Below the pieces are notes generated by a model. It had not been told where the DNA came from and did not search any database. It saw only the letters and a program-made list of their open reading frames with translations. This document shows, in pieces, positions 9,547 through 60,245 of a stretch of DNA of 64,000 nucleotides. Numbering within the stretch: position 1 is the stretch's first letter; each line of letters begins with the position of its first letter. The stretch covers positions 682,001 to 746,000 of the forward strand of contig MKTY01000020.1 in assembly GCA_001898485.1 (NCBI GenBank), in the 5' to 3' direction. The DNA is from Sphingobacteriales bacterium 46-32. GTDB taxonomy: Bacteria > Bacteroidota > Bacteroidia > Chitinophagales > Chitinophagaceae. Made by a program: the position numbers and the translations under genes.

Positions 9547-10668
9547 ATGTCTACTCCGTCGTCTCTTGTAATTACCCAGATAGAACTCTATAAGCTCTTC
9601 ATACCACTTAAAGAACCCTTTGTTATTTCCCTTGGTCCCATTTACAATGCCGAGAATGTGCTCGTAGTTATAAGGACCAACCAGGGTATTACCGGTTATG
9701 GAGAGTGCAGCCCTTTTATGAGCATTAATGGAGAAAGTGCAGATACCGGTCTGGTAGTAGCACAGTATTTTGCCAAAGTGCTTAAGGGTACTGACCCGCT
9801 GGCTATCGAAGAGCAGATAGCCCGCATGGACAAAATCATTTATGGCAATCACAGTATAAAAAGTGCCTTCGATATGGCACTTTATGATATTGCTGCACAG
9901 CACGCCGGTATGCCGCTGTATCAATACCTGGGTGGCATCAACAAAAAAGATATCATCACTGACTATACAGTAAGTATTGGCGAACCGGCTCAGATGGCAA
10001 AAGATGCCTTACGCATCCAGGCAGAGGGTTATCCGGCCATCAAGATAAAACTGGGCAGTCATGGTCCAACAGATGTAGAGCGTATCCGCGCCATTCGTCA
10101 GGCTGTTGGACCCGACATTCCACTGCGTATTGATGCCAATCAGGGGTGGACGGTATCCGAAGCCATTGCCACCTTGCAGGCTCTTGCGCCATTTGATATC
10201 CAGCATTGTGAAGAACCTATAGCCCGGTGGGCCTTCATGGAGCTACCACAAGTGCGTGCAGCAAGTCCCATCCCCATCATGAGTGATGAAAGCTGTGGCG
10301 ACGACCACGATGCGGAGCGTCTGATACGCCTGAAAGCCTGCGATTATATGAATATCAAACTGGGTAAATCTGGTGGCATATTCAAAGCGCTGAAAATGGT
10401 AAAACTCGTCGAAGCGGCCGGCATGCATCTGCAGGTAGGAGCCTTTATGGAATCAAGGCTGGCTATGACAGCCTTTGCCCATTTTGCCTGCTGCTCGCCC
10501 ATCATTGAGCATTATGACTTCGATACAGCCCTTATGTTTCAGGAAGATCCTGTAAGCGGAGGTATTATTTACCGGCCCAATGGCCTGATCGAACTTCCCA
10601 CACAACCCGGCCTCGGCGCCGGCATTAAGCCCGAATGGGAAAAAAAGATGGAGAAGATAATATGCTAA
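9547..10668 (+). CDS. Dipeptide epimerase (L-Ala-D/L-Glu epimerase type), enolase superfamily
   Basis: 373 residues with the muconate-lactonizing subgroup layout. An N-terminal capping domain is followed by a barrel with the catalytic KxK (AIKIKLG), metal ligands in RIDANQGW, CEEP and MSDES, and the second catalytic lysine in MNIKLGKSGG. These positions are typical of dipeptide epimerases that recycle muropeptide-derived dipeptides; substrate is not proven by motif alone. The upstream S46 peptidase releases dipeptides, so a shared peptide-scavenging role is plausible. Confidence 0.88.
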   Translation: MSTPSSLVITQIELYKLFIPLKEPFVISLGPIYNAENVLVVIRTNQGITGYGECSPFMSINGESADTGLVVAQYFAKVLKGTDPLAIEEQIARMDKIIYGNHSIKSAFDMALYDIAAQHAGMPLYQYLGGINKKDIITDYTVSIGEPAQMAKDALRIQAEGYPAIKIKLGSHGPTDVERIRAIRQAVGPDIPLRIDANQGWTVSEAIATLQALAPFDIQHCEEPIARWAFMELPQVRAASPIPIMSDESCGDDHDAERLIRLKACDYMNIKLGKSGGIFKALKMVKLVEAAGMHLQVGAFMESRLAMTAFAHFACCSPIIEHYDFDTALMFQEDPVSGGIIYRPNGLIELPTQPGLGAGIKPEWEKKMEKIIC

Positions 10669-10833
10669 TGTGATAAATGTGCTGATGTGCTAATGAATTT
10701 GAGAATCGCTGAATCAGCTGCTTACGGGTTATTTTGAACGATTTTAAAAGTAAAGATCCCGTAAAATTGGCAGCTATGTAGTGGTATGCCTGAGACTTTT
10801 TACATTAGCACATCTATCACATCAGCATATTTA
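10669..10833. repeat. Octad-word element with conserved hairpin interior, copy 1
   Basis: The outer arms are 8-nt words of the TGTGCTGA/TGTGCTAA type on the left and their reverse complements (TTAGCACA, TCAGCACA) on the right. The interior carries a two-part stem: AGCTGC 10716-10721 with GCAGCT 10770-10775, and TTACGGG 10722-10728 with CCCGTAA 10758-10764, with a 5-nt bulge. The interior is about 90% identical to the second copy at 11488-11660. It sits between the epimerase gene and alkA. Confidence 0.85.
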
Positions 10834-10838
10834 GAACA

Positions 10839-10870
10839 TTGTTTTCGTCTTCAAATCGTTTTTACATTTG
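10839..10870 (+). promoter_or_regulatory. Candidate alkA promoter (TTG / TAnnTTTG)
   Basis: TTG at 10839-10841, then 21 bp, then TACATTTG at 10863-10870, matching the Bacteroidota -33/-7 arrangement. The box overlaps the TTG codon at 10868, which argues that translation starts further on, for example at GTG 10886. Confidence 0.45.
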
Positions 10871-10885
10871 TACAAACATTTCCCG

Positions 10886-11485
10886 GTGCAGTACATTCTT
10901 CATTTATCAAAAGATGCTAAGCTACGGCGGCTGCTTGCAGGTGCAGAAGGATTTAAACTGAAAAAGAGGCGTAATATCTGCAACTATCTCTGTGCATCTA
11001 TTATGAGCCAGCAGTTATCAACCAAAGTGGCCGCTGTAATTCATCAGCGCTTTCTCGGTTTATTTGACGGAAAAGAGCCTTCTCCGCAGGACATCCTCGA
11101 TATGCCCTCGGAGCAGTTGCGGGCAATTGGTCTGAGCAATGCCAAAGTAAGTTATGTAAAAAATGTGGCCGCTTTTGAAATAGAACATGGCATGGACCCT
11201 CGCCGCCTGGCAAAAATGGATAATGAAGAAGTAATTGTATATCTGACGCAGATAAAAGGAGTGGGGCGGTGGACGGTCGAGATGCTGCTGATGTTTGCCC
11301 TTGGCCGTGAAGACGTATTTGCCGTTGATGATCTGGGCATTCAGCAGGCAATGACACATCTGTATAAGCTGGATGCATCGGATAAAAAGAAGCTACGCCA
11401 GGATATGCTGCGTATTTCGCAAAAATGGTCGCCCTACCGCACCTATGCATGCAAGCATTTGTGGACCTGGAAAGACAGCAAATAA
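10886..11485 (+). CDS. alkA: DNA-3-methyladenine glycosylase II (AlkA-like, HhH-GPD)
   Basis: 199 residues from GTG 10886. A TTG at 10868 gives 205 residues but lies inside the probable -7 promoter box. The helix-hairpin-helix IKGVGRWTVEM and the following catalytic aspartate in VFAVDDLGI identify the HhH-GPD superfamily. It has no C-terminal Fe-S cysteine cluster, which separates it from MutY/Nth. It removes alkylated bases from DNA. The length fits the short AlkA branch lacking the N-terminal Ada-like domain. It is flanked on both sides by near-identical repeat elements. Confidence 0.85.
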   Translation: MQYILHLSKDAKLRRLLAGAEGFKLKKRRNICNYLCASIMSQQLSTKVAAVIHQRFLGLFDGKEPSPQDILDMPSEQLRAIGLSNAKVSYVKNVAAFEIEHGMDPRRLAKMDNEEVIVYLTQIKGVGRWTVEMLLMFALGREDVFAVDDLGIQQAMTHLYKLDASDKKKLRQDMLRISQKWSPYRTYACKHLWTWKDSK

Positions 11486-11487
11486 GA

Positions 11488-11660
11488 AATGTGCTGATGT
11501 GATAGTTGTGCTAATGAATTTGAGGATCGCTGAATCAGCTGCTTACAGGTGATTTGAATGATTTTACAAGTAAAGACCCTGTAAAATTGGCAGCTGTGTA
11601 GTGGTATGCCTGAGACTCTTTACATTAGCACATCAGCACATCTATCACATCAGCACATTA
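11488..11660. repeat. Octad-word element with conserved hairpin interior, copy 2
   Basis: Same architecture as the element at 10669. The stem is AGCTGC 11537-11542 with GCAGCT 11590-11595, and TTACAGG 11543-11549 with CCTGTAA 11578-11584. Compared with copy 1, the G-C pair 10726/10760 is replaced by A-T (11547/11580), a compensatory change. Its right arm runs into the 5' region of mnmD. Confidence 0.85.
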
Positions 11661-11677
11661 TCCTCAAATCACTACTT

Positions 11678-54383: not shown

Positions 54384-54536
54384 TGATGTGCTGATTTGCT
54401 AATGTGCTAATGACGGTTAGATTGTTTATCAGGATATCAACTCATACAATTGAAATTCTTTAGTCAGTTTGTTCCAATATTGAATTTTCAAACAACCCAT
54501 TAGCACATTAGCAAATCAGCACATTAGCACATTCCT
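54384..54536. repeat. Octad-word inverted element with 26-nt perfect arms
   Basis: The left arm 54387-54412 is the words TGTGCTGA, TTTGCTAA, TGTGCTAA and a final TG. The right arm 54498-54523 is its perfect reverse complement, then further words to ~54533. The 85-nt interior differs from the copies flanking alkA. It lies between msrB and the aminotransferase, both rightward. Confidence 0.85.
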
Positions 54537-60065: not shown

Positions 60066-60245
60066 CATGTGCTGATGTGCTGATATGTCAATGTGCTGAT
60101 GCTGGGTACAGGATTATAATAAAACTGCCGGCTAAGCCGGCAGTTCAACTTTGACATTCTAATAATATTACGACTGAATACTCACAAAAGCCGGTTCTCT
60201 GAATACTACATTAGCACATCAGCACATTAACCCATTAGCACATTG
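60066..60245. repeat. Octad-word inverted element with hairpin interior
   Basis: The left arm from 60068 is TGTGCTGA, TGTGCTGA, TATGTCAA, TGTGCTGA. The right arm 60209-60245 is the reverse complement with an AACCC interruption, still in 8-nt phase. The interior holds the terminator at 60123-60145 and is otherwise unlike the alkA-flanking copies. It fills most of the 301-bp gap 59947-60247. Confidence 0.8.
60123..60145. terminator. Hairpin terminator of the SurA-type gene
   Basis: AACTGCCGGC (60123-60132), loop TAA, GCCGGCAGTT (60136-60145): a perfect 10-bp stem. On the minus strand TTATTAT follows. It lies inside an octad-word element. Confidence 0.8.

Follow-up and report, generated by a model that had tools for sequence, protein, structure and literature searches.

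Repeats flanking a bacterial alkA gene: two elements of a foldback-type family at gene 3' ends, with loops that may be exchanged through octamer arms

Results

Two array-bounded elements flank alkA

The window (the whole stretch of DNA that was analysed, 64,000 nucleotides) contains a locus encoding an enolase-superfamily protein (PF02746/PF13378), an alkA-like DNA glycosylase and a Methyltransf_30 protein. Two repeat elements lie beside alkA (Table 1). They are direct copies linked by repeat blocks of 82 nt (93%) and 49 nt (94%), and the neighbouring genes are co-directional. An earlier note on this DNA had described the elements as about 90% identical with shared interiors. Such elements are indeed present; their interiors (loops) are 91% identical and occur in these two copies only in their own genome.

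Table 1. Positions of the repeat elements, their parts and the alkA gene in the window.
Feature	Position	Strand	Remarks
Element 1, left arm	10660-10695	+	array ATATGCTA ATGTGATAA ATGTGCTG ATGTGCTA ATG; overlaps the stop codon of the upstream gene
Element 1, interior (loop)	10696-10802	.	107 bp; 91% identical to element 2
Hairpin, 5' half (AGCTGC TTACGGG)	10716-10728	+	inside element 1 interior
Hairpin, 3' half (CCCGTAA ... GCAGCT)	10758-10775 (10758-10764 + 10770-10775)	+	not kept in the G001 homologue
Element 1, right arm	10803-10832	-	inverted octamer array
alkA-like DNA glycosylase gene	10868-11485	+	HhH-GPD, PF00730; between both elements
Element 2, left arm	11488-11516	+	starts about 3 bp past the alkA stop codon
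Element 2, interior (loop)	11517-11622	.	second copy of the element 1 interior
Element 2, right arm	11623-11659	-	inverted octamer array
Further element	54386-54532	.	rare word ATTTGCTA in both arms; 83-bp interior; 4 bp past a stop codon
Further element	60067-60243	.	GC hairpin AACTGCCGGC..GCCGGCAGTT in interior; stop codon of a minus-strand gene 4 bp from right arm

The longest inverted pair at the locus (10653-10695 with 11623-11665, 43 nt, 91%) exceeds the pairs within either element. It is formed by the left arm of element 1 and the right arm of element 2, and recombination there would invert alkA. The arms seem to be swapped between the copies, given the resemblance of element 1's left arm to element 2's right arm. 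In this one case the swap may be the trace expected of an inversion by recombination between arms.

The arms are inverted octamer arrays

The arms are tandem arrays of an 8-bp word, ATGTGCTR, in agreement with the outer arms of TGTGCTRA words reported earlier. Genome-wide, a pattern of two units with up to 2 mismatches gave 394 forward and 443 reverse matches, against 1 and 0 for a control with the pattern written backwards. A sample of 1.64 Mb including the window (30% of the genome) was surveyed for elements. It yielded 32 elements of usable size, each made of a forward array, an interior of 59-214 bp and a reverse array. Neighbouring arrays on opposite strands within 400 bp were in +/- order in 33 cases and in -/+ order in one. 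With 33 of 34 pairs pointing inward, the arrays are arranged like the terminal inverted repeats of a MITE. The elements also display inverted arms of short tandem repeats around heterologous middles, as foldback elements do.

The arms of an element match each other specifically. The length-normalised match within elements is 0.686, compared with 0.598 for permuted arms (sd 0.015), and none of 20,000 permutations reached the observed value; the raw score gave likewise none of 20,000. Rare words are common to both arms of individual elements: GGTG (C27:343979), ATCTG (C27:33904) and TAGTG (position 68077 in the numbering of the window extended by its downstream stretch).

The eighth base of the unit is nearly always A or G, and TR is kept in 117 of 121 unconstrained middle units. 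This conservation preserves a stop codon. The unit plus one base reads ATG TGC TRA, with TRATG overlaps, and an array could act as a translational device, a chain of two-codon open reading frames catching ribosomes that leave the gene. We find this scarcely credible: the start codon is not conserved, with A, T or C at position 3 in 37 of the 121 units of this genome while position 5 is invariant, and the inverse arms carry no such frames on the sense strand.

A second tandem 8-bp word, ATTTGAAR, is often found just inside the ATGTGCTR arms (G000 C14:326410-326450; L203:2645-2665; L220:936-955). At L220 it is inverted again at the opposite end, as though shells of octamer arrays were nested.

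The elements abut stop codons

Gene calls were made with a simple, heuristic codon-usage model. According to these calls, a facing stop codon is no more than 10 bp away for 25 of the 32 elements, and only one element is near a 5' end. Random intergenic placement (500 trials) put on average 0.67 elements within this distance, with a maximum of 4; when the eligible intergenic regions were weighted equally, the corresponding values were 4.6 and 12. Distances from stop codon to array cluster between -1 and 7, under one unit, and are most often -1, the TRA of a unit then being the stop codon itself. At several convergent gene pairs the element occupies the entire gap between both stop codons. This position suggests a role at transcript ends.

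Enrichment of the interiors in terminator hairpins was also considered, and was rejected: their hairpin content is no higher than that of ordinary DNA adjacent to gene 3' ends or of random intergenic DNA. Therefore, nothing marks the loop itself as functional.

Sites and arms are conserved in a related genome but loops are replaced

The sole close relative with arrays that was compared, G001, belongs to the same genus; it is in 440 contigs, with the alkA locus within one of them. The genes flanking the elements are mostly 90-92% identical to their counterparts at the DNA level (~92%). At both alkA sites the elements are present in G001 and their interiors are altogether different: the blocks of 90-92% identity end at the junction of arm and interior and resume at the other arm, on both sides. 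The earlier note had pointed out that the direct copies could recombine and delete alkA. No such deletion was seen, and G001 retains alkA between two elements.

Eight orthologous collinear sites were compared, five of which (both alkA sites, C27:24752, C27:31525 and C14:315068) had been picked from this genome with G001 unseen. All eight carry elements in both genomes, which leaves no empty site among them at which a target duplication could be read. The interiors, cut by eye at the junctions, had no detectable similarity at six sites (p 0.135-0.95); one was marginal and one had a GC hairpin in common. Loop length jumped from 93 to ~460 bp between species. The arm effect was weaker across species, where arms of the same species outmatched mixed arms at only 5 loci out of 8. 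The median intergenic identity to G001 was 0.91 for 17 array-free regions and 0.59 for 11 array-bearing regions, conserved edges included. Therefore, the replacement is tied to the arrays.

Loops recur at other array-bounded sites

Of the 32 loops, about 14 are related to other sampled sequence, and about 18 had no relative there. Besides the alkA pair (91%), loops recur between the left alkA site of G001 and G000 C27:222782-223217 (84%), between C27:292304 and 311013 (84% over 122 bp), and between C27:223008 and 223480 (97%). In the fullest matches, the related loop sits at another site bounded by arrays, and the similarity stops no more than a few bases from the arms. At L231:2290-3190 (G001 contig 187) the arm-plus-loop unit is tandemly duplicated, carries a AACTGCCGG..GCAGTT hairpin and adjoins a MITE-like loop.

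A MITE-like family with inverted ends AATCACTGTTGTCCGGGG(A)AAATA is nested between octamer arrays at L220:939-1400, L231:2290-3190 and G000 C27:35740-36020. Its transposase was not found in the sampled sequence.

Two alternatives must be weighed here, both of which we regard as unlikely but worth serious attention. The first is a MITE-like, non-autonomous transposon, the arrays being long terminal inverted repeats used by an unseen transposase, with independent insertions beside stop codons in each species. The inverted arms, small size, many copies and different loops at one site fit this possibility, as do the loops with MITE-like inverted ends resembling AATCACTGTTGTCCGGGGAAAATA. Independent insertion, however, does not predict the same site in both species at 8 of 8 collinear loci. 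Moreover, an empty site with a target duplication was not found, the eight sites all being occupied in both genomes, and the 1.64 Mb scanned held neither a substantial open reading frame between inverted arrays, such as a transposase, nor an autonomous transposon with the same ends. A transposon with these arrays as its ends is a minor possibility.

The second alternative involves no exchange: slippage would grow the arrays up to the stop codon, the arms would correct each other via hairpins, and the loop would change fast because the foldback stalls replication. Stop-to-array distances of under one unit and rare variants common to both arms agree with this process, which is about as improbable in our eyes as the transposon. 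It is opposed by the recurrence of loops at unrelated sites, with similarity stopping at the arms, and by the jump in loop length between species, which point mutation does not give.

The hairpin inside the alkA loop

The earlier note had drawn attention to a hairpin in the alkA loop, AGCTGC/GCAGCT plus TTACGGG/CCCGTAA. These stems are exact in element 1, and the double change from G10726-C10760 to A11547-T11580 between the copies is real. From this change it had been suggested that the structure is kept as RNA or cruciform DNA, and a search for homologues followed by a test of the stem had been recommended. In 100 relatives, one homologue of the interior was found (G001:C26, 73%, E 1e-7); two other matches were at chance level. 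It has no octamer arms, and 5 of its 13 stem pairs are broken. RNA folding compared with shuffled sequences gave z-scores of -1.9 and -3.0 for copies 1 and 2, and +1.3 for this homologue.

The two copies differ by a compensating change at one of 13 stem pairs. This is weak evidence, because random placement of 8 substitutions produced a two-sided hit on some pair in 7.7% of trials, and because the stem carries 2 of the 8 substitutions where 2.1 are expected, so that it is not spared. Since the stem is broken in the homologue and substitutions fall at expectation, the claim of a maintained structure fails, as far as three sequences allow. Selection on a structured RNA or cruciform, for which the compensating pair and the two negative z-scores speak, is also opposed by the presence in G001 of both alkA sites without this interior, and by a search of the locus against Rfam, in which no family fitted and the top scores were far under the gathering cut-offs. 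We judge it very unlikely. Of the two natures proposed earlier, the small non-autonomous element inside TGTGCTRA arms stands in spirit, the arms being conserved and complementary, and the structured RNA is not supported. The small hairpin is incidental; the true oddity is the changing loop between the arms.

A search for the interior in plasmids and phages gave no match. The homologue in G001:C26 contains an open frame of 90 aa. An origin of the interior as a coding relic was examined and rejected, as a protein search of 199 relatives returned only the frame itself and one chance-level match. Repeated tRNA-like fragments ('cttacaagcag...gatcccgtcaactcccac') with a copied terminator-like hairpin adjoin this armless homologue (L022:800-1250, G001 contig 26).

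Distribution of the arrays

In the relatives set, 15 of 199 genomes contain two-unit arrays, very unevenly: this genome has 312, G001 has 96 and the others have at most 24. Among 117 genomes sampled from the phylum, no other one has an exact three-unit array. A scan of 84,980 species returned at least 105 stretches with arrays. All but 2 of the 80 matches listed are titled Bacteroidota, from many families, and the array design thus appears to recur patchily across the phylum. At the other-genome loci among the matches listed, 40 of 130 arrays of at least three units follow a stop codon by 15 bp or less; an inward partner accompanies 24 of these 130 arrays and an outward partner none. Judged from these matches, the complete architecture is not present everywhere.

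Very long single-strand octamer arrays of 30-44 units are present in Flavobacterium and Bacteroidales MAGs (L299:12-767, L301:5-349, L264:5670-5910), with no inverted partner nearby.

The distribution bears on RAYT, the Y1 transposase that spreads REP/BIME repeats. The repeats are likewise dispersed, intergenic and palindromic, and the genome has a Y1_Tnp open reading frame. However, this gene is partial (positions 6-90 of 121) and its contig is devoid of octamer arrays; G001 has arrays and no Y1_Tnp match; and Y1_Tnp occurs in 146 of 199 relatives, whereas arrays occur in only 15. With no Y1 transposase flanked by arrays and a mismatched distribution, RAYT was rejected as the mover, and spread by it has hardly any likelihood left. 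A small contig, L090 (G000 C13), carries two RHS-like repeat proteins and a truncated Y1 transposase, without octamer arrays.

Discussion

On balance, we lean towards the view that the alkA repeats are two members of a genome-wide, foldback-type family at gene 3' ends, in which recombination at the arms exchanges the loops. Each element would consist of an ATGTGCTR array directly past the stop codon, then a variable loop, then the same array inverted. The arms, near-identical over ~25-60 bp at many sites, may serve as points of recombination or template switching through which a loop from one site is copied to another; this is how the two alkA elements would have come to share one loop. The left and right arms might be kept alike by hairpin-templated correction, by selection for the stem, or by both.

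Replacement of loops as a whole is observed directly, as is the presence of some loops at other array-bounded sites with similarity stopping at the arm junctions. Exchange through the arms is the process we favour, and we infer it from this recurrence and replacement rather than from a direct sighting of recombination. For the cell, the likeliest use of an element would be a long mRNA stem directly after the stop codon, marking the transcript end or insulating convergent genes from each other. Such a stem is a candidate function, proposed from sequence. Elements that simply persisted selfishly where they do no harm would leave a very similar picture.

DNA just past stop codons is usually taken as passive or as fixed terminators. 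Here, array-bounded 3' DNA was replaced wholesale while the genes stayed ~92% identical and other intergenic DNA 91% identical. Should loops pass from site to site via the arms, many genes would have their 3' ends reshuffled collectively, and the family would be a natural system for foldback-driven recombination in bacteria. In a bolder version, which we consider rather improbable, the arrays would serve a recombination or replication process dedicated to swapping loops, and thereby transcript ends, between dozens of genes; this would be a bacterial cassette-exchange system at gene 3' ends. In elements of this type, moreover, a compensating change between two repeat copies should not be taken as RNA structure.

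Comparison with known systems

In eukaryotic foldback elements, short tandem repeats make up the arms, and the middle varies from one copy to the next. The arms of Drosophila FB/Galileo and of Tetris are long, inverted and internally repetitive (PMC3573991, PMC4079207), as in the present family. Eukaryotic foldback elements are the closest in anatomy. In contrast, the present family is bacterial, measures ~0.1-0.6 kb and is tied to stop codons, and no transposase or target duplication was found for it.

The closest short-word arrays are the TAACTGA heptamer direct repeats (MacGregor 2015, PMC4679880), a 7-bp word located mostly just before start codons, with one inverted set among 170. Both families form short-word intergenic tandem arrays with a patchy spread that includes Bacteroidetes, and neither has a known mover. 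The present word differs in its length of 8 bp, its inverted pairs, its position after stop codons and the replacement of its loops.

The BrickBuilt MITE of Porphyromonas gingivalis has a 23-bp unit in a central array, with small inverted ends outside, and lies 49-591 nt from genes (PMC4596501). It combines, like our elements, tandem short repeats with inverted ends in intergenic DNA of a Bacteroidota host; in our elements, however, the arrays themselves are the inverted arms and touch stop codons. REP, BIME and REPIN sequences, for which roles in termination and mRNA stabilisation have been proposed, are also dispersed intergenic palindromic repeats (PMC3116915, PMC3733652). Unlike them, the present family has no linked RAYT, has multi-unit octamer arms, and has interiors largely unrelated among copies.

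A literature search of open-access papers by the octamer strings found none. Altogether, inverted octamer arms, position at stop codons and loop replacement are combined in none of the systems compared here, and we provisionally regard this combination as new within the dispersed intergenic inverted repeats.
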